Positions 14,084 to 35,156 of a DNA stretch of 64,000 nucleotides are shown in pieces. This DNA is from Jiangella sp. DSM 45060. Its GTDB lineage: Bacteria > Actinomycetota > Actinomycetes > Jiangellales > Jiangellaceae. The notes under the pieces are model-generated. The model saw only the letters and a program-made list of their open reading frames with translations, was not told where the DNA came from and searched no databases. A program made the position numbers and the translations under genes. How positions within the stretch are numbered: position 1 is the stretch's first letter; every line of letters begins with the position of its first letter. The stretch is from contig NZ_LT629771.1 in assembly GCF_900105175.1 (NCBI RefSeq), forward strand, positions 1,054,001 through 1,118,000, in the 5' to 3' direction.

Positions 14084-14210
14084 GGATCGGCCACGGGGAG
14101 CAGGTGCTGGCGGTGCGGCCGAGTGGGCTGCTGCGCGGCTACGCCGACCGGGCGTTGCTGCGAGCACGGGTGGGGGAGCACGGGTGAGGATCGGCCACGG
14201 GGAGCAGGTG
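14065..14210. repeat. 104-bp-period tandem duplication across a gene junction
   Basis: The 42 bases at 14065-14106 recur exactly at 14169-14210. They span the end of one reading frame (QVGEHG or RVGEHG, stop) and the beginning of the next (RIGHGEQV). The remaining 62 bases of each period are diverged but still encode similar peptides (RPSGLLRGYADR and RPGEPMGGYADR). This is a duplicated start region of the ceramidase-like gene. Confidence 0.85.
14080..14187 (+). pseudogene. truncated duplicate N-terminus of the ceramidase-like gene
   Basis: GTG-initiated 35-codon frame whose first 9 residues are the same as those of the following gene (RIGHGEQV after the start) and whose next part is similar (RPSGLLRGYADR). 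It ends with VGEHG and a stop overlapping the real GTG start. It has GTGA overlaps on both sides, so it may be translated as a coupling peptide between the kinase and the downstream gene. Most simply a relic of tandem duplication. Confidence 0.65.
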
Positions 14211-15389
14211 TTCGAGGTCAGGCCGGGCGAGCCGATGGGTGGCTACGCCGATCGGTCGCACGGGGCCGGCGGCGTGCTGGACCCGCTGGAGGTGCACGTC
14301 GTGACGTTCGCCGCCGGCCGGCGCCGGTTCGCGCTGGTCGTGGCCGACCTCGTCTGCGTGAACGCCGACGTCGCCGGGCAGGTGCGCGACGCCCTGCGGG
14401 AGGTGCGGATCGACGACTGCTGGATCGCGGCCACGCACACGCACGCGAGCCCGGAGGCCGGCTGCACGCCGGGCGGCAGCCCGACCCCGCCGGACGTCGG
14501 GCGGCGCCTGGTCGCGGCCGCGGTCAGCGCGGCCACGGCGGCCGTCGTCGACGAGCGGGACGCGGCGCTGACCCGCGTCCGGGCGGAGGTCCCGGGCCTG
14601 GCCGGGCGCCGGATCGCCGGCGCCGCCGAGCGGCTGGACGTGCCGGTCGACGCGCTGGTCGTCTCGGCCGCGGCGGGCGTCACCGGCGTCGTCACCGTCT
14701 CGCCCGTGCACCCGACGGTGCTGCCGGCCGGCAACAGCGACGTCTCCGCGGACCTCAACGGCGCGATCCGCCGCGCGCTCGAGGCGCCGGGGCGCTGGGC
14801 GGTCGCGGCGACAGGCGCCGCGGGCGACATCAGCACCCGGCACACGCGCCGCGGCCGCAGCCCGGCCGAGCTGGCCCGGCTGGCGTCGCTGGTGGCCGGC
14901 GCGCTGCCGCTCACGCCGTCCCCCGAGCCCGGCCCGGACACCGTCCACCTGCCGGTGTCGCGGCGGGTCCGGCTGGAGCCGAAGACCGCGGCCGAGGTGG
15001 ACGCCGCGACGCGGGCGACCGCCGGCGCCGCCGCCGACGCGCGCACCCGGCAGGTGTTCGAGCAGGGCCGGCGCATCGCCGGCGAGCTCGCGGACCGCGG
15101 CGAGCCGTACGACGTCGACGTCCAGGCGGTCCGGCTCGGCGGCGTGACGCTGGTGGCCGTCCCCGGCGAGCTCTTCCTCGAGCTGGGCGAGGCGATCCGC
15201 GCGGCCGCCGGCCCGGACGTCATCGTCGTCGGCTACGCCAACGGCTACCTCGGCTACCTGCCCAGCCGCGGCACGCCCCCCACGTACGAGACGCTCGTCA
15301 GCCCGGTCCGGCCGGGCAGCGGCGAGCGGGTCGCCGACGTCGCCGTCCAGGTGGCGCGGATCGTCGCAGCAGCGGAGGAGAGCACGTGA
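14184..15389 (+). CDS. neutral/alkaline ceramidase N-terminal-domain-like hydrolase
   Basis: The 401-aa protein carries the neutral-ceramidase N-terminal fold. Evidence is YADRSHGAGGVLDPLEV near the start, ALVVADLVCV and the zinc-binding THTHASPEAG motif (His85 and His87), AATGAAGDISTRH, and a C-terminal GYANGYLGYLP segment typical of the family. It has no signal peptide and lacks the C-terminal domain of true ceramidases. Many bacterial homologues lie in carbohydrate operons, so an amide or ester hydrolase acting on a sugar derivative, for example an N-acyl sugar, is plausible. GTG start coupled to the duplicated fragment; stop coupled to the SIS gene. Confidence 0.75.
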   Translation: MRIGHGEQVFEVRPGEPMGGYADRSHGAGGVLDPLEVHVVTFAAGRRRFALVVADLVCVNADVAGQVRDALREVRIDDCWIAATHTHASPEAGCTPGGSPTPPDVGRRLVAAAVSAATAAVVDERDAALTRVRAEVPGLAGRRIAGAAERLDVPVDALVVSAAAGVTGVVTVSPVHPTVLPAGNSDVSADLNGAIRRALEAPGRWAVAATGAAGDISTRHTRRGRSPAELARLASLVAGALPLTPSPEPGPDTVHLPVSRRVRLEPKTAAEVDAATRATAGAAADARTRQVFEQGRRIAGELADRGEPYDVDVQAVRLGGVTLVAVPGELFLELGEAIRAAAGPDVIVVGYANGYLGYLPSRGTPPTYETLVSPVRPGSGERVADVAVQVARIVAAAEEST

Positions 15390-19881: not shown

Positions 19882-21021
19882 TCACCAGTTCGTGTAGGCG
19901 CCGTCCGGGGTGCGCAGGTGCGGCCGCTCGGCCGGGGCCGCCCGCAGCTTTCGGGCGGCCTCGCGGTCGATGTCGACGCCGAGGCCGGGCAGCTCGCTGC
20001 GCTCCACCCAGCCCGGGCGCACCGTCGGCCGGGCGGTGAACAGCGCGGCCGTCGCCGGCTCGGGCGCCACCTGGTGCTCCTGGACGCCGACGTTCGGGCA
20101 GGCCAGGTTGAGGTGCAGCGACGCGGCCGCCGTGACGGGGCCGAGCGGGTTGTGGGTGGCCAGCTTGACGTAGTGGGTCTCGGCCAACGCGGCGATCTTC
20201 TTCGCCTCGGTCAGCCCGGCCGCCACCGCGACGTCGACCCGCGCGTAGTCGATGAGGTCGCGCTCGATCAGCCGCTGGAACTCCCACTTCGAGCCGTACA
20301 CCTCGCCGGTGGCCAGCGGCACGCCGGTGCGCAGCCGCAGCATCTCGTAGCTGTCCAGCGACTCCGACCGCAGCGGGTCCTCGACGAAGTACGGCCGGGC
20401 CGCCTCGATCTCGCGGCACAGCGTCACCGCCTCCGGCGGGTCCAGCCGGGTGTGAACGTCGAGGATCAGCTCGATCTCGTCACCCAGCGCCTCGCGGGCC
20501 GCGTGCATCATCGCGATCGACGCGCGCATGCTGGCCCGCTGGTCCAGGACGCCGTCGTCGTGCGGCGCGGCGAAGCGCAGGTGCCGCCAGCCGTCCTCGA
20601 CCAGCTGCCGGCAGCGGTCCAGGAACGCCGGCAGCTCGCGGTGCTGGTCGCCGACATGGACGTAGCACGGCACCGCGTCGCGGACCTGGCCGCCGAGCAG
20701 CTCGTACACCGGCACGCCCAGCGCCTTGCCGCGGATGTCCCAGAGAGCGACGTCGATGGCGGCGATCGCGGCGGACAGGAACCGGTCGGACGGGAAGAAC
20801 CCGCGCCGGAACATGACCTGCCACAGGTGCTCGATGCGGGTGGGGTCCTCGCCGACGACCAGTTCGGCCAGGTGCTCGATGCCGCCGGCCACCGCGCGCT
20901 GCCGGGTCCGGATGCCGACCTCACCCAGGCCGTGGATGCCCTCGTCGGTGTCGACCGCGACCAGCATCATGCTGTCGCCGTGGTCGGGGAGGGTGAGCAC
21001 TTCGCACCCGGTGATCTTCAT
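19882..21021 (-). CDS. ManD-like enolase-superfamily sugar-acid dehydratase
   Basis: The 379-aa mandelate racemase/muconate lactonising enzyme family member has an N-terminal capping domain (1-110) and a barrel with likely Mg ligands Asp188 (LDVHTR), Glu214 (FVEDPL) and Glu240 (ATGEVYGSKWEF). His290 lies in KLATHNPLGPVTAAASLHL. DVHxR plus HNPLGP are hallmarks of the D-mannonate/D-gluconate dehydratase branch. It probably dehydrates an aldonic acid to a 2-keto-3-deoxy acid. ATG 21021 begins the conserved domain; an earlier in-frame start would add 14 unrelated residues. Divergent from a LacI regulator and likely part of its regulon. Confidence 0.85.
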   Translation of the reverse strand: MKITGCEVLTLPDHGDSMMLVAVDTDEGIHGLGEVGIRTRQRAVAGGIEHLAELVVGEDPTRIEHLWQVMFRRGFFPSDRFLSAAIAAIDVALWDIRGKALGVPVYELLGGQVRDAVPCYVHVGDQHRELPAFLDRCRQLVEDGWRHLRFAAPHDDGVLDQRASMRASIAMMHAAREALGDEIELILDVHTRLDPPEAVTLCREIEAARPYFVEDPLRSESLDSYEMLRLRTGVPLATGEVYGSKWEFQRLIERDLIDYARVDVAVAAGLTEAKKIAALAETHYVKLATHNPLGPVTAAASLHLNLACPNVGVQEHQVAPEPATAALFTARPTVRPGWVERSELPGLGVDIDREAARKLRAAPAERPHLRTPDGAYTNW

Positions 21022-21118
21022 GGGCTTCGGCGTCCCTTCGTTGAAAACGATCCCGCAAATCACTCATCGCGGCGGTCAGCACCGTACCCTATGCGTCAGT
21101 TCACTGCATAGACACCTC

Positions 21119-21147
21119 TTGACACACATCAGAAACGTTTGCAATGC
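21119..21147 (+). promoter_or_regulatory. lacI promoter with overlapping LacI-type operator
   Basis: TTGACA (21119-21124) is followed by AGAAACGTTTGCA (21131-21143), whose centre AAACGTTT is a perfect palindrome of the kind bound by LacI proteins, lying in the spacer. The -10 (CAATGC, 21142) is weak. A second AAACG half-site occurs at 21045, nearer the dehydratase gene. Confidence 0.5.
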
Positions 21148-21190: not shown

Positions 21191-22183
21191 ATGGCCGTCA
21201 CTATCGGCGCGGTCGCCAAGGCCGCCGGGGTCTCCGTCTCGACGGTGTCCCGCGCGCTCAACACGCCGGACCTCGTCAACGCCACCACCCGGCAGCGGGT
21301 CGTGGCCGCCGCCGAGAAGCTCGGCTACACGCCCAACCAGGCGGCGCGGTCGCTGCGCGAGGGCCGCACCGAAACGCTGGGGCTGCTGATCCCGGACATC
21401 ACCAACCCGTTCTTCCCGCCGATCTTCAAGGCGATGCAGGAGCGGGCCAAGCGGCTGGGCTACACCCTGCTGGTGGCCGACAGCGACGAGCGCGAGGCCG
21501 ACGAGCTCGAGACCATCGCCGCGGTGTCGAAGAAGGTCGACGGGCTGGTGCTCTGGGCGTCGATGCTGCCGGAGGACCGCCTCGCCGAGCTGGCCGAGCG
21601 GATGCCCGTCGTGCTGGTCAACCGCCAGGTGCCGGGCGTCAGCGAGGTGCACGTCTCGCTCACCGACGGCATGGCGCAGGCCGCCGAGCACCTCAAGGCG
21701 TACGGCCACCAGCGGTGCGTCTTCGTCGACGGCAACGGCAACCGGCCGGACCAGTCGCGGTCGAAGTCGATCCGGGCCGCGTTCGACGCGCACGGCCTGT
21801 CGCTGATCGAGATCGGCCCGTACGAGCCCCGGTTCGAGACCGGGGTGCACGCCGCGCCGCTGGTCCTCGCCCACCAGGCGACCGCGGTGCTGGCGCACAA
21901 CGACCTCGTCGCGATGGGCGTGCTGCACCAGCTCGCCGCGCTCGGCGCCGCCGTGCCGGGCGACGTCAGCGTGGTCGGCATCGACGACACGCTGCTGGCG
22001 TCGGTGTCCACGCCGTCGCTGACGACCATCCGCATCGACCCGGACGAGATCGCCAGCCGGGCGGTCGACCTGCTCATCGGGCTCGTGCATGAGCGCGAGC
22101 CCGCCACGCCGGTGGTCCAGGTCGGGTCGCGGCTGATCCCGCGCGGCACGACCGGGCCGGTCCGGCGCGATCCGCAGCGGTAA
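21191..22183 (+). CDS. LacI-family transcriptional regulator
   Basis: The 330-aa protein has an N-terminal LacI HTH (TIGAVAKAAGVSVSTVSRAL) with hinge helix (TPNQAARSLREG), then a periplasmic-binding-like effector domain (TLGLLIPDITNPFFPPIFK; GIDDTLLASVSTPSLTTI). GAGGAG precedes the ATG. It sits between the divergent dehydratase and the downstream sugar transporter operon and probably represses both until an inducer, likely a sugar or sugar acid released by the encoded enzymes, binds. Confidence 0.93.
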   Translation: MAVTIGAVAKAAGVSVSTVSRALNTPDLVNATTRQRVVAAAEKLGYTPNQAARSLREGRTETLGLLIPDITNPFFPPIFKAMQERAKRLGYTLLVADSDEREADELETIAAVSKKVDGLVLWASMLPEDRLAELAERMPVVLVNRQVPGVSEVHVSLTDGMAQAAEHLKAYGHQRCVFVDGNGNRPDQSRSKSIRAAFDAHGLSLIEIGPYEPRFETGVHAAPLVLAHQATAVLAHNDLVAMGVLHQLAALGAAVPGDVSVVGIDDTLLASVSTPSLTTIRIDPDEIASRAVDLLIGLVHEREPATPVVQVGSRLIPRGTTGPVRRDPQR

Positions 22184-22260: not shown

Positions 22261-23655
22261 ATGACATCCATGGCCAGACCACGCCCGCTTCGCCTCGGCG
22301 CGCTGCTGCTGAGCAGCGTCGCCCTGCTCGCCGCCTGTGGCGGTGACGACAACGCCGGCGGCAGCGGCGACGGCGACGGCGGCACCGTCACCATCCGCGT
22401 CCAGGGCCTGCCGCCGGGCACCGACCAGGCCGGGCAGGACCAGTTCAACGCGAAGATCGCCGAGTTCGAGGAACTGCACCCGGACATCCAGATCGAGGCG
22501 TCGACCAACGAGTACGACCCGCAGACGTTCTCCGCGCTGCTGGCCGGCGGTGGCGTCGAGGACGTCATCAGGGTGCCGCTGACCGAGCCGCAGGGCCTGA
22601 TCCAGCGCGGCCAGGTGCAGCCGATCACGCAGTACCTCGACGAGTGGGAGCACGCCGACGAGATCAACCCGCAGGTGCTGGAGCCCATCTCCGACGCCGA
22701 GGGCGACGTCTACGGCATCCCGCGCTCGCCGTTCGCGCTGGGCCTGGTCTACAACCGGGCGCTGTTCGAGCAGGCCGGCCTCGACCCGGACACCCCGCCG
22801 GCGACCTGGGACGACGTCCGCACCGCCGCGCAGGCCATCAGCGCCGCGACCGGCGTGGCCGGCTTCGTGCACGAGTCGAAGGACGGCCAGGGCGGCTGGC
22901 AGCTGACGATGATGGCGTACGCGCACGGCGGCGAGCTGGAGAAGGCCGACGGCGACACCTACGTCGCGGACTTCCAGAACGACGCCGTCCGCGACTCGCT
23001 CGGCCTGCTGCGCGAGATGCGCTGGACCGACCAGTCGATGGGCGAGACGCAGCTGCTCAACCAGGACGACGTCATCCGCCAGTTCGCGGCCGGGCAGGTC
23101 GGCATGTTCATGGGCACGCCGGGCACCTACCGGCTGGCGAAGCAGAACTTCGGCATGGAGGACACCGCGAACTACGGCGTCACGTCGATGCCGCAGGCCG
23201 GCGGCGACGCCACCATGAGCGGCGGCGAGATCTTCATGGTCCCGGCGTCGGTGCCGGAGGACCGCGCCGCGGCCGCCGTCGAGTGGATGGTGTTCTACTA
23301 CGCCGAGCCGCAGTACGACCCGGAGACCGCGGCCGCCGAGGCCGAGGCGCTGGCGCAGGACCCGGCCGCCGCGGTCGGCGTCCCGGTGCTGCCGATGTTC
23401 GACGACGCGCAGCAGCAGCTGATCAACGAGGCCGTCGCGCCGTTCGTCAACGTCGAGCTGGAGAACTTCCAGCCGTACCTCACCGGCACGCCGGAGCTGG
23501 AGCTCAAGCCGGAGCCGCCGCTCAACGCGCAGGGGCTCTACCAGGTGCTCGACCCGGTCGTGCAGGCCGTGCTGACCGACCCCGACGCCGACGTCGACGC
23601 GCTGCTCGCGGCGGCCGAGGACGAGGCCAACCGGCAGCTCGAAGCCGCCCAGTAA
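22261..23655 (+). CDS. sugar ABC transporter substrate-binding lipoprotein
   Basis: The 464-aa lipoprotein has lipobox LLAAC (lipidated Cys26), a Gly/Asp-rich linker, then a family 1 solute-binding domain (VTIRVQGLPPGTDQ onward). ATG 22261 is chosen because GGGAG ends 5 bases upstream; an ATG at 22270 and a TTG at 22249 also lie in frame. It probably captures the sugar liberated by the locus enzymes. First gene of a tightly packed operon of about 13 kb reaching 35.2 kb. Confidence 0.92.
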   Translation: MTSMARPRPLRLGALLLSSVALLAACGGDDNAGGSGDGDGGTVTIRVQGLPPGTDQAGQDQFNAKIAEFEELHPDIQIEASTNEYDPQTFSALLAGGGVEDVIRVPLTEPQGLIQRGQVQPITQYLDEWEHADEINPQVLEPISDAEGDVYGIPRSPFALGLVYNRALFEQAGLDPDTPPATWDDVRTAAQAISAATGVAGFVHESKDGQGGWQLTMMAYAHGGELEKADGDTYVADFQNDAVRDSLGLLREMRWTDQSMGETQLLNQDDVIRQFAAGQVGMFMGTPGTYRLAKQNFGMEDTANYGVTSMPQAGGDATMSGGEIFMVPASVPEDRAAAAVEWMVFYYAEPQYDPETAAAEAEALAQDPAAAVGVPVLPMFDDAQQQLINEAVAPFVNVELENFQPYLTGTPELELKPEPPLNAQGLYQVLDPVVQAVLTDPDADVDALLAAAEDEANRQLEAAQ

Positions 23656-23675
23656 CCCACGGGAGACGAGAACCA

Positions 23676-24623
23676 GTGACGACGGCGACGGTCACCCGTC
23701 CGGACGAGGAGCAGGCGGACCGGCAGGTCCGGGCCGCCCGCTCCCGCCGGTGGCGGGCCGGCGGGCGCAGGGAGCTCACCGGGCTGCTGTTCCTGCTCCC
23801 CGCGATCGCGATCTTCGGCCTGTTCGCGTGGTGGCCGATCGTCCGCGGGCTGATCATCAGCTTCCAGCGGACCGACCTGATGGGCAGCAGCGAGTGGGTC
23901 GGCCTGGACAACTTCCAGGCGCTGTTCGCCGACCCGCTGCTGGGCACGGCGGTGCAGAACACGCTGCTGTTCGTCGGGCTGGGTGTGCTGATCGGGTTCC
24001 CGGCGCCGCTGATCCTGGCGTCGGTGCTGTCGACGGTGCGCCGGCTCGGCGGGATGTACCGGTTCCTCGTCTACCTGCCGGTGGTGATCCCGCCGGTGGT
24101 GTCGGTGCTGCTGTGGAAGTGGTTCTACGACCCGGGCGCCGGCCTGTTCAACGAGCTGCTCGGCAAGGTCGGGCTGGGGCCGTACCCGTGGCTGGAGTCG
24201 CCGGACACCGCGATGCTCAGCCTGGTGCTGGAGTCGACCTGGGCCGGCATGGGCGGCACCGTCCTCATCTACCTGGCCGCGATGGTCGGCATCCCGCAGG
24301 AGCTGTACGAGGCGGCCGAGATCGACGGCGCCAACCTGTGGCAGCGCATCTGGCACGTCATGCTGCCGCAGCTGCGCACGGTGATCGCGCTGCTGCTGCT
24401 CTGGCAGCTGATCAACACCGTGCAGGTGTTCACCGAGCCGTACGTGTTCACCGGCGGCGGGCCGCAGAACTCCACCACCACCGTCCTCCTGCTGATCTTC
24501 CGCTACGGGTTCCAGCAGGGCAACTACGGGCAGGCCGCGGCGCTGGCCTTCCTGCTCGCCCTCGCGCTCGCCCTGATGTCGGCGGTGTACCTGCGGGCCA
24601 CCCGGAGCTGGAGCAAGTCATGA
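23676..24623 (+). CDS. sugar ABC transporter permease, MalF-type
   Basis: The 315-aa protein has a charged N-terminal tail (about 35 residues), about six membrane helices and the EAA loop YEAAEIDGANLWQRIWHVMLP. GTG start 10 bases after GGGAGA. No ATPase gene follows, so a shared ATPase is implied. Its stop overlaps the next permease start. Confidence 0.93.
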   Translation: MTTATVTRPDEEQADRQVRAARSRRWRAGGRRELTGLLFLLPAIAIFGLFAWWPIVRGLIISFQRTDLMGSSEWVGLDNFQALFADPLLGTAVQNTLLFVGLGVLIGFPAPLILASVLSTVRRLGGMYRFLVYLPVVIPPVVSVLLWKWFYDPGAGLFNELLGKVGLGPYPWLESPDTAMLSLVLESTWAGMGGTVLIYLAAMVGIPQELYEAAEIDGANLWQRIWHVMLPQLRTVIALLLLWQLINTVQVFTEPYVFTGGGPQNSTTTVLLLIFRYGFQQGNYGQAAALAFLLALALALMSAVYLRATRSWSKS

Positions 24624-25489
24624 GCGGATTCGTCTCCGAGACCAGCCGCCGCCGGCCGGGCACCCGCCGCGCGCTGTTCACCGTCCACGGCCTCACCCTG
24701 ATCGCGCTGGTGCTGATCGGGCTCGGACCGCTGTACTGGGCGTTCAAGGGCGCGGTGTCGTCGCCGACCGAGCTGGTGACGAACCCGCTGGCGCTGTGGC
24801 CGGCCGACGCGCGCTGGGCCAACTTCTCGCTGGCGTGGGACGACCTGGAGGTCGGCCGGTACGTGCTGAACAGCTTCTGGATCGTGCTCGGCTCGTGGGC
24901 CGTGCAGCTGTTCGTGGCGGCGACGGCTGGGTTCGCGCTGTCGGTGCTGCGGCCGAGGATCGGCCCGTACGTGTACGGCGCGATCCTGGCCACGATGTTC
25001 GTGCCGTACACGGTGTCGATGGTCAGCCTGTTCCTCACCATCATCGACCTGCCGATCCTGGGCATCAACATCGCCAACTCGTACTGGGCGATCTGGCTGC
25101 CGGCCGGCGCCAACGCGTTCAACGTGCTGCTGGCGAAGGGGTTCTTCGACGCGCTGCCGAAGGAGCTGTTCGACGCGGCGAAGGTCGACGGCGCCGGCAC
25201 CTGGCGGCTGCTGTGGAGCATCGTGCTGCCGATGAGCCGGCCGATCCTCGCCGTCATCAGCCTGCTCGCCGTCATGCACTCGTGGAAGGACTTCATCTGG
25301 CCGCTGGTCGCGATCGCCGACCCGCAGAAGCAGCCGATCGCCGTCGCGCTGACGGTGCTGGCCGGCCAGGCGCCACAGGACCAGCTGATCGCCGCGATGG
25401 TGCTCGCGCTGGTCCCGCCGGTGCTCGTCTTCCTGGCCTTCCAGCGCCAGATCGTCGCCGGCCTCGGTTTCACGGGGGTGAAGGGCTGA
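24620..25489 (+). CDS. sugar ABC transporter permease, MalG-type
   Basis: The 289-aa protein has about six helices and the EAA loop FDAAKVDGAGTWRLLWSIVLP. The ATG overlaps the previous stop (ATGA). It completes the importer. A 55-bp gap leads to the first exported glycosidase-like gene. Confidence 0.93.
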   Translation: MSGFVSETSRRRPGTRRALFTVHGLTLIALVLIGLGPLYWAFKGAVSSPTELVTNPLALWPADARWANFSLAWDDLEVGRYVLNSFWIVLGSWAVQLFVAATAGFALSVLRPRIGPYVYGAILATMFVPYTVSMVSLFLTIIDLPILGINIANSYWAIWLPAGANAFNVLLAKGFFDALPKELFDAAKVDGAGTWRLLWSIVLPMSRPILAVISLLAVMHSWKDFIWPLVAIADPQKQPIAVALTVLAGQAPQDQLIAAMVLALVPPVLVFLAFQRQIVAGLGFTGVKG

Positions 25490-25544
25490 CTCAGCCCGTG
25501 CTGTAGGCACCGTCCGCACTTCGACGAAGAAGAAGGGACGCACC

Positions 25545-27839
25545 ATGCCCGAGGTATCCCGACGCACGTTCGTCCGCGGCTCGCTCGCGGCCGGCGGCGG
25601 TGGCCTGCTGGCCGCGTCGCTGCCGGCCACGGCGCACGCCGCCGAGGTCACCGTCACCGACCCCGCCGGCACCGTCACGCTGGCCGCCGACACCGCGAGC
25701 GGCGCGATCCGTCTGCTCGACGCCGGTGGGGTGCACCGGCTGACGCTCACGCACTTCAAGTACTCCAACAGCGCCCGCACGTTCGGCGCCTCGTCGGTGA
25801 CGACGAACGGCGGCACCGAGCTGACCGTCGTGTACGTCACCCAGGATCCGTCCGTGACGGTGCGCGCGGTGGCCGTCGTGGGGTTGCGCAAGGCGCGGAT
25901 CCGCTGGGAGGTCGCGGGCGCCGGGGCAGCGCCGGACCAGTTCGCGATCGCCCGCACCACGGTCGGCGCCACGATGACGTACCGGCCGGTGGCGCTGTGG
26001 AACCGCGAGCCCGGCGGTGGCATCCCGTACGAGACCACGCACGGCGCCGGCTACGCGTTCGACTACGCCGACACCCGGCTGCTGCTGCGGCTGCGCGACA
26101 GCACGCCCGGGTTCGGCGACGACACCTGGCTGAACGCGCCCGGCGTCGCGTCCGGCGGCGGGTACGTCACCGAGGCGGTGCTGGTGCCCGGCCTGATGCG
26201 CCCGCACGCGGCCGGCGTCATCGCCCGCGACATCGTCACCCCGCTCGGCGTCGAGTTGTGGGCGGACCAGCCGTTCCACGTCTGGCCGTCGGGTGGCGCG
26301 AAGACGGTGAACGCGCAGGTGGTGAACTCGGAGAGCGCCGACCGCGAGGTCCGGCTGTCCTGGACCGCCCGCACGTGGGACGGCGCGGTGCAGAGCGGGA
26401 CGGCCGGACCGGTGACGGTGTCGCCGCGGACGGTCTGGAACACGTCGTTCGACGTGGTTCTGGGCGGCCGCGACATCGCGTTCGTCGAGGCGGAGGTGAC
26501 CGACGGGACCGCGACGGCCTTCACCCGCACCAACCTGGCGGTGCTGGCGCCGTTCACCTACCAGGCCGGCGCGGCCAGCAGGTTCGGCGTCTCGAACTAC
26601 CCGTGGCTGCTCAGCGGCCCGGGTCCGGACGAGACCGCCGCGCTGCTGAAGCTGATCGGGATGAAGTGGGTGCGCACCGCGTACGCCGGCGCACCCGGCA
26701 TCCCGCCGGCCGACCTCGACCGGCACGGGCTGCTGCACAACGTCCAGCTCGGCGACTTCGACGAGGGCATGCCCGCCGACCCCGCGGCCTGGGCGGGGAG
26801 CATGGTCGACCTGTGCGTGGCCGCCGGCGCCCGCTACTACGAGTGCGGCAACGAGCTGAACCTCCCCTCGCCGGGGGTCAGCCCCGCGGCGTACGTCGAC
26901 GGGGCGCTGCGCCCGCTGCGCTCCGTCATGCGGAACCGGCCCGACGCCACCTTCAAGGTGATGACCTGCGGTCTCGCCGGGATGGACTCGGTCTGGCTGG
27001 ACGGGTTCGGCGCGGCCGGCGGCTGGGGCGAGGTCGACGTGTTCGCGTACCACCCGGGCCGCGGCAACTACGTCGCCGACTACTCCCCGCCGGAGCCGTG
27101 GCTCGAGCCCGACGGCGACCGCCTGCCGGTGTTCTGGAACTTCATCGGCTCGCTGCGCAAGGCTGACGCCGCACGCGCGAGCACGCCGGACGGTCGCAAG
27201 GAGCTGTGGCTGACCGAGGCGTACGCGTCGACGCTGCCGAACCGCTGGTGGACCGACACCTACCGGCACGCCGCCGAGAACGTGCTGCTGCAGCTGATGT
27301 TCGCCCGGGCGTACGACGTCCGGTGCGTCACCTGGTACACCCTCGACGACGGCATCGAGCAGCAGCCGCGCGAGGCGCACCCCGGCGACATCGAGTACCA
27401 CTTCGGCCTGCTGGTCCGCGACCGCAGCCCGAAGCCGTCGCTGCTGGCCTTCGCTACGGCGGCCCGCTTCATCGACCAGGCCGAGTACCTCGGGCGGGTC
27501 ACGTTCAGCGACCCCGAGGTCAAGGGCCTGCTGTTCGACACGTTCGCGGTGCTGTGGACCCGCCACGACGGCTACGTGCTCAACAACGACCCGGCCCGCC
27601 GCGACCCCGCCAACCCGGACTACTACCGCACCCCCGAGCCGTGGCTGGACCCGTGGCCGACGAAGACCCCGGTGTCGCTGCCCACCCCCGCCGCGACCAC
27701 CACCGTCCGCGAAGTGAACGCGATCGGCCAGGAGACCCTGCACACCGCCGCCGGCGGGCGCGTCACCGTCACCCTCGACGGCGCGCCGCGCATCGTCGTC
27801 GGCCTCGAACTGACCACCACCGCCACGTACCCCGTTTGA
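25545..27839 (+). CDS. Tat-exported glycosidase-like protein A, unassigned family
   Basis: The 764-aa protein has a twin-arginine signal peptide (SRRTFVRG, hydrophobic stretch, cleavage near AHA-AEV). Residues about 35-330 look like beta-sandwich domains. Residues about 345-640 look like a TIM barrel, with YYECGNELN (Glu437) and LWLTEAYAS (Glu558) at the positions expected for the acid/base and nucleophile of clan GH-A glycosidases. A short beta domain ends the protein. I do not recognise a named GH family. It lies 11 bp before a paralogue and behind a sugar importer, so it probably cleaves an extracellular glycan. Confidence 0.75.
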   Translation: MPEVSRRTFVRGSLAAGGGGLLAASLPATAHAAEVTVTDPAGTVTLAADTASGAIRLLDAGGVHRLTLTHFKYSNSARTFGASSVTTNGGTELTVVYVTQDPSVTVRAVAVVGLRKARIRWEVAGAGAAPDQFAIARTTVGATMTYRPVALWNREPGGGIPYETTHGAGYAFDYADTRLLLRLRDSTPGFGDDTWLNAPGVASGGGYVTEAVLVPGLMRPHAAGVIARDIVTPLGVELWADQPFHVWPSGGAKTVNAQVVNSESADREVRLSWTARTWDGAVQSGTAGPVTVSPRTVWNTSFDVVLGGRDIAFVEAEVTDGTATAFTRTNLAVLAPFTYQAGAASRFGVSNYPWLLSGPGPDETAALLKLIGMKWVRTAYAGAPGIPPADLDRHGLLHNVQLGDFDEGMPADPAAWAGSMVDLCVAAGARYYECGNELNLPSPGVSPAAYVDGALRPLRSVMRNRPDATFKVMTCGLAGMDSVWLDGFGAAGGWGEVDVFAYHPGRGNYVADYSPPEPWLEPDGDRLPVFWNFIGSLRKADAARASTPDGRKELWLTEAYASTLPNRWWTDTYRHAAENVLLQLMFARAYDVRCVTWYTLDDGIEQQPREAHPGDIEYHFGLLVRDRSPKPSLLAFATAARFIDQAEYLGRVTFSDPEVKGLLFDTFAVLWTRHDGYVLNNDPARRDPANPDYYRTPEPWLDPWPTKTPVSLPTPAATTTVREVNAIGQETLHTAAGGRVTVTLDGAPRIVVGLELTTTATYPV

Positions 27840-27850
27840 GAGGACCTGAC

Positions 27851-30169
27851 ATGGGAGAACTCCACCTGACCCGCCGGACGTTCGTCGGCGCCGCGGGATC
27901 GGTGGCCGTCGGCGCCGGGCTGCTGCCGGGGGTGGTCGCGCAGGCGGCCGCCGCCGAGCCCGTCACGATCGGCGCGGACGGCATCGTCGTCACCGCGGGG
28001 ACCGACGGCGCGGTGACGGTCGCCGACGGCGCCGGCGTGCAGCGGCTGAAGCTGGCGCACTTCATGGTCAAAGACACCGTGCTCGGGCAGCAGCGCACCT
28101 ACAGCGGCACGCCGTCGGCGATCACGCTGCCGGACGGGCGCCCGGCGATCCGGGTCGACTACCGCATGGGCAGCACCGGCGTGGGCATCGCCGTCCGCGC
28201 CACGTTCGACGTCACCGCGCACCGCCTGCACGTGCGCTGGGAGGCCACCAGCGGCAACCAGCTGTACCTGAACTCGCAGTTCCACCGCGTGGCCGTCGGC
28301 GACGCCGGCCCGGAGACCACCAAGGCGCTGACCCGCTGGAACCGCGACAGCGGCGGCGGCGTGCCGTACGAGACCAACGACGGCGTCATCTACGCGCGCA
28401 GCTGGCCCGACACCGCCGGGTTCCTGCGCATCGCCGACAGCAACCCGGCCTGGAGCGCGGGCGAGTGGGTGCACGTCGCCGGCACGTACGACGGCGACGT
28501 GCTGGTGCACGACGTCGACGTCGTCATCGGCGACCTGCGCCCGGCCGCGGCGAACGCGCTGGCCCAGGCGCGACCGCTGGGCATCGACATCTGGACCGAC
28601 CAGCCGTTCAACCTGTGGGACGGCCCTGGTCACGCGATGGCCGTGCACGCGCAGGCCGTCAACGGCGGCGCCGCCGCGCGCGACGTCGAGCTGAGCTGGT
28701 GGGGCCGCGACTTCGACGGCGCCGTCGTCGCCAGCGGGCAGCAGACGCTGCGGCTTTCCGCAGGCGGGGTCGACCAGCGCACCGTCGAGTTCCCGTCGCC
28801 TGAGCAGGGCATCGTGTTCGTCGAGGTCCGGGTCGCCGCCGGCGACGACGAGGCGTTCGCGCGCACCACGCTGGCGTCGCTGCGTCCGTACGCGTACCAG
28901 CCGGGCGGCAGGGTCGGCATCGCCAACTACCCGTGGCTGCTGCAGCCGAGCAAGGACGACGTCGCCGCGCTGCTGAAGCGGATCGGAGTCGCGTCGGTGC
29001 GCATCGCCTACAACGGCGCGCCCGGCATCCCGCCGGCCGAGCTGGAGGCCATGGGCATCATGCCGAACATCCAGCACGGCGACGTCGTGTTCGACGCGCC
29101 GCCGGAGGAGGTCAAGGCCTGGGCGGCGGACCTGGTGGACGTCGTCGTCGACGCCGGCGCGCACTACTTCGAGGTCGACAACGAGCGCAACCAGCCGTGG
29201 ATGTCCGGTCAGTTCACCGAGGAGTACATCCGCGACGGCCTGCGCCCGGTGGTCGAGCGGCTGGCCGAGGTCGGCTCCGACGTCAAGGTGATGAACACCG
29301 GCCTCGGCGGCATGGACGTCAACTGGCTGGACAACTTCCACGCCAACGGCGGCTGGGACCTCATCGACGTGTTCGCGTTCCACCCCGGCCGTGGCAACTT
29401 CACCCCGGACTACGCCCCGCCGCCGGAGGACTGGGAGCAGGGCAGCAACGGCAGCTACTGGAACTTCCTCGGCGGCCTGCGCGAGGCCCGCCGCCGCCTC
29501 GACGAGTACGGTGGCGACAAGGAGCTGTGGCTGACCGAGGCCTACTCGTGCACCCGGCCGAACCACTGGTGGAACGACACCATGCGCCAGTCGGCCGAGA
29601 ACGTGCTGCTCACGCTCGCGCTGGCCATGTCAGAGGGGGTCGACGGCGTCAACTGGTACCAGTTGCACGACAGCATCATCCACCAGCCGCAGAAGGCGAA
29701 CCCCACGAACCCGGAGTACCACTTCGGGCTGATGAACCGCGACACCAGCGCGAAGCCGTCGCTGCTCGCGTACGCCACCGCGACCCGGCTGCTGGAGGGC
29801 GCTACGTTCGTGCGGTGGTTGTCGTTCGACGACGAGGACGTGAAGGGGCTGCTGTTCGAGACACCGGACGGGCAGATGTCGATCCTGTGGACCCGCACGG
29901 ACGGCTACTTCCTCAACGCCGCGCACGGTGAGGACGCGTACTACCCGCACCCGGAGGCGTGGGAGGACGACTGGCCCACCAAGACCGACGTCGCGTTCCT
30001 GGGTGCGCGGCTGCGCGAGGTCGACGTGCTCGGCCGCGAGCGCACCGTCACCGCGTCGCGCGGCACCGTCGGCGTCGTCCTGGACGGCACCCCGCGGGTC
30101 TACTTCGGCCTCGGCGACCAGCCGGAGCGCCGGGTCTCGTCGATCACGCACCGTCCGGTGGAGGGCTGA
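27851..30169 (+). CDS. Tat-exported glycosidase-like protein B, paralogue of A
   Basis: The 772-aa protein has the same layout as its neighbour: twin-arginine signal (TRRTFVGA), beta-rich N-terminal half, and a barrel region with shared blocks (IANYPWLL; YNGAPGIPPAELE; FAFHPGRGNF; KELWLTEAYSC). The candidate catalytic pair is Glu445 (EVDNERNQP) and Glu563 (LTEAYS). The asparagine before the first glutamate is kept although the flanks differ (CGNELN in A, VDNERN in B), which suggests different specificity after duplication. ATG follows GAGAGGA. Five bases separate it from the FAD oxidoreductase gene. Confidence 0.75.
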   Translation: MGELHLTRRTFVGAAGSVAVGAGLLPGVVAQAAAAEPVTIGADGIVVTAGTDGAVTVADGAGVQRLKLAHFMVKDTVLGQQRTYSGTPSAITLPDGRPAIRVDYRMGSTGVGIAVRATFDVTAHRLHVRWEATSGNQLYLNSQFHRVAVGDAGPETTKALTRWNRDSGGGVPYETNDGVIYARSWPDTAGFLRIADSNPAWSAGEWVHVAGTYDGDVLVHDVDVVIGDLRPAAANALAQARPLGIDIWTDQPFNLWDGPGHAMAVHAQAVNGGAAARDVELSWWGRDFDGAVVASGQQTLRLSAGGVDQRTVEFPSPEQGIVFVEVRVAAGDDEAFARTTLASLRPYAYQPGGRVGIANYPWLLQPSKDDVAALLKRIGVASVRIAYNGAPGIPPAELEAMGIMPNIQHGDVVFDAPPEEVKAWAADLVDVVVDAGAHYFEVDNERNQPWMSGQFTEEYIRDGLRPVVERLAEVGSDVKVMNTGLGGMDVNWLDNFHANGGWDLIDVFAFHPGRGNFTPDYAPPPEDWEQGSNGSYWNFLGGLREARRRLDEYGGDKELWLTEAYSCTRPNHWWNDTMRQSAENVLLTLALAMSEGVDGVNWYQLHDSIIHQPQKANPTNPEYHFGLMNRDTSAKPSLLAYATATRLLEGATFVRWLSFDDEDVKGLLFETPDGQMSILWTRTDGYFLNAAHGEDAYYPHPEAWEDDWPTKTDVAFLGARLREVDVLGRERTVTASRGTVGVVLDGTPRVYFGLGDQPERRVSSITHRPVEG

Positions 30170-30174
30170 GCTCG

Positions 30175-32376
30175 ATGCGCGAACAGCAGGTCCGGCACGA
30201 CGTGACCGTGGTGGGCGGCGGGCTGGCGGGCGTGTGCGCCGCCATCGCCGCCGCCCGCCTCGGGCGCTCCGTCGCGCTGATCAACAACCGCCCGGTCCTG
30301 GGCGGCAACTCGTCCAGCGAGATCCGGGTGTGGGTGGTCGGCGCGACGGCGCACGGCCGCAACCACCACGCCCGCGAGACCGGCATCATGGGCGAGCTGT
30401 TCGTCGAGAACCAGTACCGCAACCCCGAGGGCAACCCGTACTACTGGGACGCGGTGGTGCTCGACGCCGTGCGGGCCGAGCCGAACATCTCGCTGTACCT
30501 CAACACGGACGTGCGCGAGGTGTCCGCGTCGGATGGCCGGATCGAGTCGGTGACCGGCTGGACCATGGGGTCGGAGCTGCTGACGACGTTCACCGGGCCG
30601 GTGTTCCTCGACTGCACGGGCGACGGGCTGGTCGGCGCGTTGGCCGGTGCGGAGTTCCGGATCGGCCGGGAGGCGCGCTCGGAGTACGACGAGCCGTGGG
30701 CGCCGGAGGTGGCAGACGAGATCACGCTGGGCAGCACGCTGCTGTTCTATTCGAAGGACGCGGGCGAGCCGAGCCGGTTCGTGCCGCCGTCGTTCACGAA
30801 GGACATCGCGGCGACGTCGATCCCGTCGCGCCGCGTCATCCGGGCGTCGGACAACGGCTGTGCGTACTGGTGGATCGAGTTCGGCGGCGAGCTGGACACC
30901 GTCCACGACAACGAGGCGATCCGCGACGAGCTGTGGGCCGTCGTGTACGGGATCTGGGACCACATCAAGAACTCGGGGTCGTTCTCCGACGTCGACAACC
31001 TGACGCTGGAGTGGGTCGGGTCCGTGCCCGGCAAGCGGGAGTACCGGCGCTTCGTCGGCGACTACGTGCTCACCCAGCACGACGTGCTGCAGCAGACCGA
31101 GTTCGACGACCGCGTCGCGTTCGGCGGCTGGTCCATCGACCTGCACCCGCCCGGCGGCATGTACGCGCAAGAGGAGGGCGCGAAGCAGCGCTACGCCGAC
31201 GGGATCTACCACATCCCGTACCGCATCCTGTACTCGAAGAACGTCACGAACCTGCTGCTGGCGGGGCGCAACGTGTCCGCGTCGCACGTCGCGTTCGGCA
31301 CCACCCGGGTGCAGGCCACCACCGCCGTCATGGGCGAGGCGGCCGGCACGGCGGCGGCGCTCGCGGTCGCTTCTGACATCGAGCCGCGGGCCGTCGACGT
31401 CGGCGAGCTGCAGCGGACGCTGCTGCGCAACGACGCGGCGATCGTGGGGCTGCCGCTCGTCGATTCCTCCGACCTGGCCTCGGCTGCCACGGTGACGGCG
31501 TCAGGCGCCCTGTCGTCGCTGGCGGTGGAGGACGGGTCGTCGGCGTGGCCGCTGGACGCCGACGCGGGGCTGGTGCTGCCGGTGGACCCGTCGCTGCCGG
31601 TGCTGGAGCTGCTCGTCGACGCCGAGGCCGACACCTCGCTGACCGTCGAGCTGCACGACCCGGGGCCGGGGCAGAACTACGTGCCGCGGACGCTGGTGTC
31701 GACGCTTTCCGCGCCGGTGCCGGCCGGGTCGAAGCAGTGGGTCCGGTTCGACCTGGCGTGGGCGCCCGACACCCCGCGGAACGCGTTCGTGCTGGTCCGG
31801 GCCGCTTCCGGGGTGTCGCTGTACGTGGCCGACCGGCCGGCGCCGGGCGTGCTGAGCTTCACCCGGCGGCCGTTGCGCCCGCAGGACGAGCGGCCGCAGC
31901 CGCTGCGCGAGTGGACGAACCGCGAGCTGCTGCGGCGGACGTTCTGCTTCCGTGCGGGCGGCTCGTCCGCGTTCGCACCCGAGAAGGCCGTCGACGGGTA
32001 CCTGCGGCCGTTCGCCGGGCCGCACACCTGGGTGTCGTCTGGACTGCCGGCCTGGCTGCGGCTGACGTGGGAGTCGCCGGTGACCATCGGCCGGGTCGAG
32101 CTGATCGGCGACGACGACGTCGACGAGGACCTCATCAACCTGCACCGGCACCGCACGCCGTTCCCGGTGCCGCCGCCGCTGGTCCGCGACTACGTGGTCG
32201 AGGCGCTGGTGGACGGTGCGTGGGAGCCGGTGGTGTCGGTGACCTCGAACCGTCGCCGGCGGCGGGTGCACGAGCTGGCGACGGCGGTGACGTGCACCGC
32301 GCTGCGGGTGGTCGTGACGGCGACCAACGGCGCGCCCGACGCGCACGTCGTCGCGCTGCGGGCGTACGCGCCGTGA
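30175..32376 (+). CDS. FAD-dependent oxidoreductase with C-terminal discoidin-like domain
   Basis: The 733-aa protein has an N-terminal FAD-binding Rossmann motif (VTVVGGGLAGVCAAIAAARLG, glycines at 14-19). GGNSSSEIR, CTGDGLVGALAGA and the closing flavin motif (LLLAGRNVSASHVAFGTTRV, then GEAAGTAAALA) place it in the FAD_oxidored family. Residues about 600-733 (EKAVDGY, WLRLTWESPVTIGRVELI) resemble an F5/8-type carbohydrate-binding domain. No signal peptide is present. This fusion suggests oxidation of a glycan or sugar substrate. The stop overlaps the epimerase start. Confidence 0.82.
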   Translation: MREQQVRHDVTVVGGGLAGVCAAIAAARLGRSVALINNRPVLGGNSSSEIRVWVVGATAHGRNHHARETGIMGELFVENQYRNPEGNPYYWDAVVLDAVRAEPNISLYLNTDVREVSASDGRIESVTGWTMGSELLTTFTGPVFLDCTGDGLVGALAGAEFRIGREARSEYDEPWAPEVADEITLGSTLLFYSKDAGEPSRFVPPSFTKDIAATSIPSRRVIRASDNGCAYWWIEFGGELDTVHDNEAIRDELWAVVYGIWDHIKNSGSFSDVDNLTLEWVGSVPGKREYRRFVGDYVLTQHDVLQQTEFDDRVAFGGWSIDLHPPGGMYAQEEGAKQRYADGIYHIPYRILYSKNVTNLLLAGRNVSASHVAFGTTRVQATTAVMGEAAGTAAALAVASDIEPRAVDVGELQRTLLRNDAAIVGLPLVDSSDLASAATVTASGALSSLAVEDGSSAWPLDADAGLVLPVDPSLPVLELLVDAEADTSLTVELHDPGPGQNYVPRTLVSTLSAPVPAGSKQWVRFDLAWAPDTPRNAFVLVRAASGVSLYVADRPAPGVLSFTRRPLRPQDERPQPLREWTNRELLRRTFCFRAGGSSAFAPEKAVDGYLRPFAGPHTWVSSGLPAWLRLTWESPVTIGRVELIGDDDVDEDLINLHRHRTPFPVPPPLVRDYVVEALVDGAWEPVVSVTSNRRRRRVHELATAVTCTALRVVVTATNGAPDAHVVALRAYAP

Positions 32377-33236
32377 GGCACGTGCTGGTGACCGGCGCCG
32401 CCGGGCGCATCGGGCGCGCGGTGCTCTCGCTGCTGTCCTCCCGGGGCATCGAGGCGACGGCGCTGGTGCTGGGCGACCCGGGCGACCTGGAGGCGTCCCG
32501 GGTCGTCGTCGGGTCGGCGGAGGACGTCGCCGCCGTGGGCGCGGCGGTGGCCGGGGTGGATGCCGTCATCCACCTGGCCGCCCGCCCCGCGCCGCACTAC
32601 GACACCCCCGTCGAGGTGTTCGCCGGCAACACCCGGGCGACGTTCACCGTCCTGGAGGCGGCCGGTGCGGCGGGGGTGCGGCGGGCCGTGATCGCCAGCT
32701 CGTTCGGGGCGACCGGGCTGCCGTGGACGCGGACGTTCGTGCCGCCCGCGTACCTGCCGGTCGACGAGGCGCTGCCGGCCGTCGTCGAGGACCCGTACGG
32801 GCTGTCCAAGCAGGCCGACGAGCTGACCGCCGCGATGATGGCGCGGCGGCACGGGCTCACCGTCGTCGCCGTCCGGTACCCGTTCGTCGGCGGGGTGGAC
32901 GAGCGGCTGGCGGAGCACGCGCGGACGTTGACGGAGGATCCGTCGCGCGGGGTGCGGGACCTGTGGTCGTACCTGGACGTGCGCGACGCCGCCCTCTGTG
33001 CCCTCTCGGCGCTGGGTGTCGAGGACGGCCGGGCGCACGTCGTGCACGTGGCGGCGCCGTCGACCCTGGTGCCCGTGCCGACCGCCGAGCTGTTGCGGCG
33101 GTACCTGCCGGACGTTCCGGTGCGGCGGCCGCTGCCCGGGCGGGCGGTGCCGGTGGACACGTCGGCGGCGCGGCGGCTGTTCGGCTTCGCCGCTCGGTAC
33201 CCCTACCAGGATGGTTCTGAGCCCGCCGCTGGTTGA
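32373..33236 (+). CDS. NAD-dependent epimerase/dehydratase, extended SDR
   Basis: The 287-aa protein has an N-terminal VLVTGAAGRIGRAV (GxxGxxG) motif, and YGLSK supplies the catalytic Tyr-x-x-x-Lys. VIHLAA is the typical NAD-site strand. It probably oxidises, reduces or epimerises a sugar or uronate made in this locus. GTG start overlaps the FAD gene stop. Confidence 0.88.
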   Translation: MRHVLVTGAAGRIGRAVLSLLSSRGIEATALVLGDPGDLEASRVVVGSAEDVAAVGAAVAGVDAVIHLAARPAPHYDTPVEVFAGNTRATFTVLEAAGAAGVRRAVIASSFGATGLPWTRTFVPPAYLPVDEALPAVVEDPYGLSKQADELTAAMMARRHGLTVVAVRYPFVGGVDERLAEHARTLTEDPSRGVRDLWSYLDVRDAALCALSALGVEDGRAHVVHVAAPSTLVPVPTAELLRRYLPDVPVRRPLPGRAVPVDTSAARRLFGFAARYPYQDGSEPAAG

Positions 33237-34308
33237 CGTTGGTGTGGACGTGGTGGTGATCGGGGCCGGCCAGGCCGGGCTGTCGACGGCGTACCACCTG
33301 CAGCGGCTCGGGCTGTCGTTCGTCGTGTTCGACGGCTCGCCGGTGGCGGGCGGCGCGTGGGCGTCGCGGCCGCCGACCTTGACCATGGCCAAGGTGCACG
33401 GGGTGTTCGACCTGCCCGGCGCCCATCGCGTCGCTTCTTCTGATGAGGCCGCGCTGCCCGCGTCGGAGGTGGTCGGGCGGTACTACGCCGACTACGAGCG
33501 GCGGTTCGCGCTGCCCGTCCTGCGGCCGGTGCGGGTGACGTCGGTGCGTTCGCTGCCGGACGGGCGCCTGTCGGTCGTCGCCGCTGACGGCCGGTCGTGG
33601 ACGGCGCGGGCGATCGCGAACGCGACCGGCACCTGGACCCGTCCGCACTGGCCGTACTACCCGGGGGCGTCCTCTTTCCGGGGCCAGCAGCTGCACTCGT
33701 CGCAGTACCGCGGGCCGTCGTCGTTCGCCGGCGCTCGGGCGGTCGTGGTCGGCGGCGGGCATTCCGCGGCGCACGTCCTCTCCGAAGTCGCCGACGTCGC
33801 GGCCTCCGTCACGTGGGTGACCCGGCGCCCGCCGGACTTCCGCTCGGGTGACTTCACTCCGGCCGACGGCCGCGCCGTCATCGCCGACGTCGACGCCCGG
33901 GTCCGGGCCGGCCTCCCGCCCCTGAGCGTCGTCGCCGTCACCGGGCTCGGCTACACGTCCGTCGTCCGCGAGGCCATGGAGAAGGGGGTGCTGAACCCGC
34001 GGCCGATGTTCACCCGGCTGGTCCCGTCGGGCGTGCAGTTCGCCGACGGCTCCGTCGTGCCCGCGGACGTCATCGTGTGGGCGACCGGCTTCCGCGCCGC
34101 CCTGGGCCACCTCGCCCCGCTCCACCTGCGCGAACCCGGCGGCGGCGTCCGCATGTCCGCCACCCGCGTCGTGCGCGATCCCCGCATCCACCTGGTCGGC
34201 TACGGCCCCTCCGCCAGCACCGTCGGCGCCAACCGCGCCGGCCGCGACGCGGCGCTCGAGATCAAGGAGCTGCTGGAGCACTCGCCTTCGGACGTCACGG
34301 CTGCTTGA
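33211..34308 (+). CDS. flavin-containing monooxygenase-like NAD(P)/FAD oxidoreductase
   Basis: The 365-aa protein has two dinucleotide motifs, VVVIGAGQAGLSTAYHL near the N-terminus (FAD) and AVVVGGGHSAAHVL mid-protein (NADPH). The linker PHWPYYPGASSFRGQQLHSS, WATGFR and the C-terminal GYGPSASTVGANRAG fit FMO/CzcO-like reductases. ATG 33211 overlaps the upstream gene by 26 bp and has only a weak AGG upstream; GTG 33244 is an alternative that would lose 11 residues before the FAD strand. Substrate unknown. Confidence 0.83.
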   Translation: MVLSPPLVDVGVDVVVIGAGQAGLSTAYHLQRLGLSFVVFDGSPVAGGAWASRPPTLTMAKVHGVFDLPGAHRVASSDEAALPASEVVGRYYADYERRFALPVLRPVRVTSVRSLPDGRLSVVAADGRSWTARAIANATGTWTRPHWPYYPGASSFRGQQLHSSQYRGPSSFAGARAVVVGGGHSAAHVLSEVADVAASVTWVTRRPPDFRSGDFTPADGRAVIADVDARVRAGLPPLSVVAVTGLGYTSVVREAMEKGVLNPRPMFTRLVPSGVQFADGSVVPADVIVWATGFRAALGHLAPLHLREPGGGVRMSATRVVRDPRIHLVGYGPSASTVGANRAGRDAALEIKELLEHSPSDVTAA

Positions 34309-34316
34309 CTGGCGCG

Positions 34317-35156
34317 GTGCGCTACGGACTGAAGCTGAGCCAGCAGGCCCCCATCGACGAGTACCGCGCGGTGTGGCGGGTCGCCGACGACGCGGGCTTC
34401 GACCACGTGTGGAACATGGACCACTTCGCCACCATCGGCGACGACATCGACGGCGACATCTTCGACGCGTGGGCGCTGCTGGCCGCGATGGCCGAGGCGA
34501 CGTCGCGGGTGCGCATCGGCTGCATGGTCACCGGCAACACGTACCGGCATCCGGGCGTGCTCGCGAAGACGGCCACCACCGTCGACCACCTGTCCGGCGG
34601 GCGGCTGGAGTTCGGCCTCGGCGCGGCGTGGGCGGAGTACGAGCACACCATGTTCGGCCTGGAGTTCGGCACCGCGGGGGAGCGGCTGGGCCGCCTCGAG
34701 GAGGCCTGCCAGATCATCCGGTCGCTGTGGACCCAGCCGCGCACGACCTTCGCCGGCCGGCACTACACCATCGACGACGCCGTCGCCGAGCCGAAGCCGG
34801 TCCAGTCGCCGTACCCGCCGATCTGGATCGGCGGCACCGGGCGCAAGCGGACCCTGCGCATCACCGCCCAGTACGCCGACGCCTGGAACGCGAGCGCCGA
34901 CGTCGACCCCGAGACGTTCGCCGACCTGTCCGGCGTGCTCGACGCCCACTGCGCCGACGTCGGGCGCGATCCTGGGCAGATCCGGCGGACGGTGCAGCGG
35001 CCGCTCGGCGCCGAGCCCGACGCCGTCCTCGCCGAGGTCGAGGCGTACGCCCGGGCCGGCGCCGACGACGTCATCCTCATCACGCAGGCGGGCACCGCCG
35101 AGGCGCAGGCCACCGCGGCCGCCGAGCTGCTGCCGCGGCTGCGGTCGATCGGCTGA
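34317..35156 (+). CDS. luciferase-like (LLM) F420-dependent oxidoreductase
   Basis: The 279-aa LLM-class flavin/F420 enzyme shows the N-terminal strand YGLKLSQQAP, RIGCMVTGNTYRHPGVLAKT and LEFGLGAAW, with YPPIWIGGTGRKRTLR later, as in F420-dependent sugar-phosphate or alkanal oxidoreductases. Starts at GTG, 8 bases after the previous stop, with no clear Shine-Dalgarno. A hairpin follows its stop, so it seems to close the operon. Confidence 0.87.
   Translation: MRYGLKLSQQAPIDEYRAVWRVADDAGFDHVWNMDHFATIGDDIDGDIFDAWALLAAMAEATSRVRIGCMVTGNTYRHPGVLAKTATTVDHLSGGRLEFGLGAAWAEYEHTMFGLEFGTAGERLGRLEEACQIIRSLWTQPRTTFAGRHYTIDDAVAEPKPVQSPYPPIWIGGTGRKRTLRITAQYADAWNASADVDPETFADLSGVLDAHCADVGRDPGQIRRTVQRPLGAEPDAVLAEVEAYARAGADDVILITQAGTAEAQATAAAELLPRLRSIG

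Follow-up and report, generated by a model that had tools for sequence, protein, structure and literature searches.

A 64,000-nucleotide stretch of the Jiangella sp. DSM 45060 genome (contig NZ_LT629771.1, positions 1,054,001 to 1,118,000; hereafter the window) carries a putative carbohydrate-utilization locus in which nine tightly spaced genes encode a sugar-type importer, two exported glycosidase-like proteins, a FAD oxidoreductase of the PF12831 family and three further enzymes. A preliminary description had proposed that these genes, with a LacI repressor gene ahead of them and a ManD-like dehydratase gene diverging from it, form a system for oxidative glycan degradation. All nine genes were found where that description had placed them, and gene calls with Pfam and NCBIfam, the libraries from which gene families were assigned, confirmed both the repressor and the divergent dehydratase (Table 1). 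From lacI onward, the intergenic gaps are 77, 20, −4, 55, 11, 5, 5, −26 and 8 bases. Beside the solute-binding protein (SBP) and two permeases, the locus contains no ATPase gene, and a search of the window for RNA families and tRNAs found none. Our analysis documents gene content, conserved linkage, operators and a predicted fold directly, and from these we develop a model of what the locus does.

Table 1. Genes and predicted regulatory elements of the locus (positions within the window)
Feature	Position	Strand	Basis
ManD/GalD-like acid-sugar dehydratase (enolase superfamily), divergent from lacI	19882..21021	-	MR_MLE_N, MR_MLE_C
Operator O2, predicted, LacI type, GAAAACGATCCC (GAAAACGWTCCC)	21043..21054		Just upstream of dehydratase gene; 13-locus alignment
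Candidate -35 box TTGACA for lacI and operon	21119..21124	+	Conserved in alignment; below promoter-scan threshold
Operator O1, predicted, LacI type, AGAAACGTTTGC (RGRAACGTTYGC)	21131..21142		Just downstream of TTGACA
LacI-family repressor	21191..22183	+	PF00356, PF13377
SBP, sugar-type ATP-binding cassette (ABC) solute-binding lipoprotein	22261..23655	+	PF01547, PF13416; LLAACGG lipobox at N-terminus
ABC permease 1	23676..24623	+	PF00528 (BPD_transp_1)
ABC permease 2	24620..25489	+	PF00528 (BPD_transp_1)
GH1, predicted glycosidase exported by twin-arginine translocation (Tat), clan GH-A, GH39-like; candidate acid/base E437, candidate nucleophile E558	25545..27839	+	Model, fold match, invariant residues
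GH2, GH1 paralogue	27851..30169	+	43% identity to GH1; tree
PF12831 FAD oxidoreductase with C-terminal CBM32-like (discoidin) domain; no signal peptide apparent	30175..32376	+	Pfam score, tail fold, 8 orthologues
NAD-dependent extended short-chain dehydrogenase/reductase (SDR), epimerase or sugar dehydrogenase	32382..33236	+	PF01370
Flavin-containing monooxygenase (FMO)/ArsO-like flavoprotein (Pyr_redox/FMO-type)	33211..34308	+	304.5 bits to ArsO, cut-off 425
LLM F420-dependent oxidoreductase	34317..35156	+	TIGR03560, 286.9 bits, cut-off 231.4

Central to this model is the linkage between the exported glycosidase and the PF12831 flavoenzyme. A scan of 84,980 species genomes, which may not have included the genome of the window itself, yielded 68 loci spread over 14 genera of actinobacteria (Jiangella, Kribbella, Streptomyces, Nonomuraea, Streptosporangium, Spongiactinospora, Embleya, Solihabitans, Glycomyces, Hamadaea, Microbacterium, Agromyces, Herbiconiux and Aeromicrobium). 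A PF12831 gene lies within 10 kb of the glycosidase gene in 67 of them, at a median distance of about 0.4 kb between stop-to-stop frames; an ABC importer is present in all 68, and LacI in all except L054, which starts at a contig edge. The sole locus without a linked flavoenzyme, L034, comes from a genome with a gene of the FADA subfamily (see below) elsewhere, not adjoining such a glycosidase. The chance of finding a PF12831 gene within 10 kb on either side is ~4%, as calculated from the 14 full-length genes in the 7.49 Mb of the window's own genome. Of 393 Streptomyces genomes, 11 carry the glycosidase, each with a linked PF12831 flavoenzyme: in eight, a FADA orthologue scoring above 1230 bits begins no more than about 20 bases from the glycosidase; two others have the FADC subfamily in the locus; and in the last, FADA is split over two frames. 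All eight of these high-scoring Streptomyces orthologues sit by the glycosidase, and 22 lower-scoring FADA-like genes lie elsewhere. The preliminary description had suggested checking whether the exported proteins and the FAD oxidoreductase are found together across genomes, and had held that unlinked homologues would speak against a common system; the homologues proved to be linked. The conserved core of the system is the exported glycosidase, the importer, LacI and the flavoenzyme. The locus is nonetheless rare and patchy in the phylum, because among 396 actinomycetote genomes a full-length match was found only in the window's own, with partial matches in three others.

These core genes are arranged in three layouts. 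In layout A, or type A (26 loci, including L034, L035 with a displaced FADA gene, and the truncated L054), the dehydratase gene diverges from a LacI–SBP–permeases–glycosidase–FADA–SDR series. Layout C (37 loci) has permeases–SBP–FADC–LacI divergent from the glycosidase, or all genes in one direction, and a GH13 enzyme is encoded near 11 of the 37. Layout B (5 loci) mixes A and C modules: the glycosidase gene diverges from SBP–permeases–SDR–dehydratase, and LacI and FADC are of the C type. The dehydratase (30 loci, with strong scores) and the SDR (30 loci) travel together and are confined to layouts A and B. The loci vary in gene order and in flavoenzyme subfamily, so the association of glycosidase and flavoenzyme is more than a single frozen operon.

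The FAD oxidoreductase matches PF12831 (FAD_oxidored) with 333.0 bits against a gathering cut-off of 27; eight Pfam families match it, none of them GMC. Its discoidin-like tail, pointed out in the preliminary description, was recovered by fold (CBM32) and, weakly, by sequence (F5_F8_type_C_2, E 0.054), and apart from this tail the fold search returned nothing more specific than FAD-domain matches such as fumarate reductase. FADA and FADC share about 28% identity, and the CBM32-like tail is carried by FADA of type A loci and is absent from FADC. In L045 (about 12287–14658) and L146, a frameshift or an assembly error has divided FADA between two reading frames. PF12831 is a widespread family for which we know of no sugar reaction, and a literature search found no paper on it as a glycan enzyme. 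Many of the PF12831 genes in the window's own genome are next to LacI and ABC importer genes, and the neighbours of other Streptomyces PF12831 genes include GH35 and AXE1 enzymes; overall, the family looks like one of sugar-catabolism flavoenzymes. Near-constant linkage to one glycosidase offers a handle on the role of PF12831 enzymes in sugar loci.

The two exported proteins, GH1 and GH2, are paralogues, as the preliminary description had proposed, with 43% identity over their length. Its further label, glycosidase-like, holds by fold and motifs and has no counterpart in Pfam: no Pfam or NCBIfam model matched either protein, and a relaxed Pfam scan of 19 family members (E up to 1) matched no glycosidase family. 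A profile of 19 homologues, by contrast, found the GH39 structures 5jvk (E 6.6e-6) and PslG (E 0.034). The GH1 model (mean predicted local distance difference test score, pLDDT, 75, lower near both candidate catalytic sites) places a barrel between N- and C-terminal beta domains and resembles 5jvk (Z 26.5 across 432 residues; 19% identical when aligned by structure) and PslG (Z 22.6), followed by members of GH30, GH79 and GH51. The barrel has the (beta/alpha)8 form of clan GH-A, with N436-E437 after strand 4 (431–434) and a T-E pair containing E558 directly after strand 7 (553–556), as is usual in that clan. All 76 aligned rows keep both glutamates and the twin arginine. In the profile alignment, E558 falls on chain position 250 of PslG, which we infer, from a count along the construct that sets the numbering offset, to correspond to E276, one of two key residues of PslG (PMC9075953). 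Because of this fold, the placement of the N-E and T-E motifs, the invariant glutamates and the match of E558 to a PslG catalytic glutamate, the exported proteins are likely to be retaining glycosidases, and the group is apparently undescribed in the libraries searched. Pairs of glycosidases are restricted to Jiangella and two Kribbella, and their two branches lie apart in the tree; GH2 is the more conserved paralogue, and its branch clusters with the lone glycosidase found in other type A loci.

Both predicted operators lie between the dehydratase and lacI genes, and 23 of 25 type A loci have both; the exact core, GAAACGTTTGC, has one match in the whole genome. Because the pair is conserved in this way and the core occurs once in this genome, a single LacI repressor probably controls both the dehydratase and the operon arms, as judged from sequence conservation. 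The preliminary description had counted separate promoters as evidence against a common system; the conserved operators that we found are all in the ManD/LacI intergenic region. A generic sigma-70 promoter scan gave no hit over its threshold.

The dehydratase gene is a neighbour of lacI in each of 25 type A loci examined. It scores 304.8 bits against the D-galactonate dehydratase equivalog NF010624 (cut-off 311) and 292.9 bits against the D-mannonate dehydratase ManD model NF043051 (cut-off 550), and its D-x-H, E-D-P, G-E and H-N-P-L-G-P motifs, aligned with those of 3rr1, are those of an acid-sugar dehydratase. A gene for DUF6351, which Pfam describes as tannase-like, stands next to the dehydratase gene in 12 Streptomyces type A loci (for example, L036:1792-3942), and one Kribbella type C locus (L088:12921) also has a DUF6351 gene; a literature search on DUF6351 found no related paper. 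The gene first called an epimerase does belong to the Epimerase-type family PF01370 and has epimerases among its best matches, but can be classified only as a generic extended SDR. Its assignment as a uronate dehydrogenase is unsupported: the uronate dehydrogenase 3rft (32.9 bits) ranks below 4id9 (71.6 bits) and NDP-sugar epimerases. The FMO-like and LLM genes, which the preliminary description had included in the system, are present at their expected places but fall outside the conserved core, and we rejected them as core members. The FMO-like gene is lineage-specific, being confined to Jiangella and one Streptomyces, and the LLM gene is loosely placed among relatives, lying ~1.5–2.5 kb away from the operon in several Jiangella and not found near the locus in L023.

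Roughly 0.2 Mb from the window, the same genome has a second oxidative acid-sugar locus, L116 (1295001–1315000), which has no glycosidase. It encodes two MR_MLE dehydratases, a KdgD-subfamily enzyme, SDRs, a PF12831 enzyme with a Gfo/Idh/MocA oxidoreductase next to it, LacI and an importer related to that of the window; among its enzymes are ManD-like and galactarate-dehydratase-like ones. The SDR counterpart in L116 had no PDB match at 1e-15. An 839-codon open frame upstream of its LacI gene (L116:16211-18730, minus strand) had no Pfam match at E up to 1.

We propose that the locus is under LacI control and serves the oxidative use of an extracellular glycan or glycoside, a reading that we consider reasonably probable. 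In this model, one or two exported GH39-like retaining glycosidases, as suggested by Tat signals, fold and invariant glutamates, would act outside the cell and free a small saccharide or glycoside. The SBP and permeases, to judge by their families, would import this product; since the locus encodes no ATPase, a shared one would probably power this step. The cytoplasmic PF12831 flavoenzyme could then oxidize the imported sugar, a step suggested by conserved linkage only. In layouts A and B, the SDR and ManD/GalD-like dehydratase could go on to form an acid sugar and then a 2-keto-3-deoxy acid. Meanwhile, LacI bound at the two operators in the divergent promoter would repress both arms until an inducer is present. 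The proposal is supported by retention of a flavoenzyme partner although the subfamily switches between FADA and FADC and layout B mixes modules; supporting the acid-sugar part are the dehydratase motifs shared with 3rr1 and the enzyme set of L116. Of the oxidative glycan system put forward in the preliminary description, a linked and probably co-regulated locus thus stands, whereas the FMO-like and LLM genes are not core, the paralogue pair is lineage-restricted and the chemistry is what we infer. Literature searches on flavin-dependent glycan pathways found no description of this locus, and its linkage points to a pathway not yet described.

Several results weigh against this proposal. The glycosidase matches no curated family, the dehydratase is below every curated functional cut-off, and the literature search turned up no substrate or activity for the glycosidase or this flavoenzyme family. 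The catalytic part of the flavoenzyme is poorly modelled (pLDDT 58.9, and <50 over much of residues 181–351), with no substrate site readable. The acid-sugar steps are not universal, as layout C is without the dehydratase and SDR. Finally, the 68 loci share descent, and the tree needs only two layout changes; therefore, the linkages are not 67 independent events. Shared descent of linked loci is also what would be expected of an ordinary sugar-utilization operon, in which the released sugar is imported and enters standard routes and the flavoenzyme is co-inherited for some accessory purpose. LacI, an importer and a secreted hydrolase are the usual layout of such loci, and PF12831 enzymes are common in the sugar loci of this genome. 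We nevertheless regard this explanation as quite unlikely, since the flavoenzyme is present in every layout despite changes in gene order, subfamily and the other enzymes, and passive hitch-hiking should give more losses over 14 genera.

The imported molecule could instead be a glycosylated natural product, such as a plant phenolic glycoside, that is trimmed of sugar outside the cell, with the flavoenzyme and FMO acting on the aglycone or on the intact imported glycoside. The tannase-like DUF6351 protein encoded after the Streptomyces dehydratases, the FMO-like and F420-dependent oxidoreductases added in Jiangella, and the flavin-dependent C-glycoside catabolism described in soil bacteria (PMC10646112) would all fit, but the importer and regulators are those of sugar systems, the dehydratase comes from an acid-sugar family, and the FMO and LLM genes are not conserved, with GH13 enzymes found instead in 11 layout C loci; we judge this alternative doubtful. 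A special form of the oxidative route that we favour is that the flavoenzyme oxidizes a ring hydroxyl of the imported glycoside and that elimination, not hydrolysis, then cleaves the glycosidic bond. The apparently cytoplasmic location of the flavoenzyme with its CBM32-like tail, the lack of a second glycosidase in most type A and C loci among the families tracked, and the Gfo/Idh/MocA oxidoreductase beside the PF12831 enzyme in L116 are consistent with such a keto-glycoside route. Pathways through 3-keto intermediates are known, with an oxidase family other than PF12831. However, Pfam found no 3-keto-glycoside lyase or DUF1080 protein in the window locus and the literature search found no activity for the flavoenzyme family, and we consider elimination rather unlikely. 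More broadly, and speculatively, PF12831 could be a further class of glycoside-oxidizing enzymes beside the GMC oxidases and NAD-dependent Gfo/Idh/MocA enzymes, one that in actinobacteria converts imported glycosides to keto-glycosides or lactones, to be cleaved without ordinary hydrolysis, and has the exported GH39-like family as its dedicated feeder. Assigning the reaction in this locus could annotate the large uncharacterised PF12831 family and define a new glycosidase group.

Parts of the proposed oxidative route have parallels in characterized proteins. Like the GH39 enzymes 5jvk of Bacteroides cellulosilyticus and PslG of Pseudomonas aeruginosa, the Jiangella-type protein has a clan GH-A barrel, a C-terminal beta domain and catalytic-type glutamates in matching places; it differs in its extra N-terminal beta domain of ~300 residues and in Tat export. 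The dehydratase shares enolase-superfamily domains and aligned metal-ligand and histidine motifs with GalD/ManD acid-sugar dehydratases (3rr1, 3thu and relatives), but is below both equivalog cut-offs. GMC-family glycoside 3-oxidases act in C-glycoside catabolism (PMC10646112), and the window flavoenzyme may, by analogy, also perform flavin-dependent sugar oxidation in a soil bacterium; in contrast to those enzymes, it belongs to PF12831 and has no GMC match.

At the level of whole pathways, the locus resembles non-phosphorylative oxidative sugar pathways, which proceed through an aldose or uronate dehydrogenase and an acid-sugar dehydratase to a keto-deoxy acid, in combining an SDR with an acid-sugar dehydratase, both probably controlled by a single regulator, with a KdgD-subfamily enzyme in the related L116 locus. 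By contrast, the kinase and aldolase steps are not in the window locus, and the conserved oxidoreductase here is a flavoenzyme. With actinobacterial loci that combine LacI, a CUT1-type ABC importer and a secreted glycosidase, it has in common the regulator, solute-binding lipoprotein, two permeases, exported hydrolase and lack of an ATPase gene. What distinguishes it from these loci is a hydrolase outside any Pfam family, an SDR and acid-sugar dehydratase in layouts A and B, and the constant presence of a PF12831 flavoenzyme.

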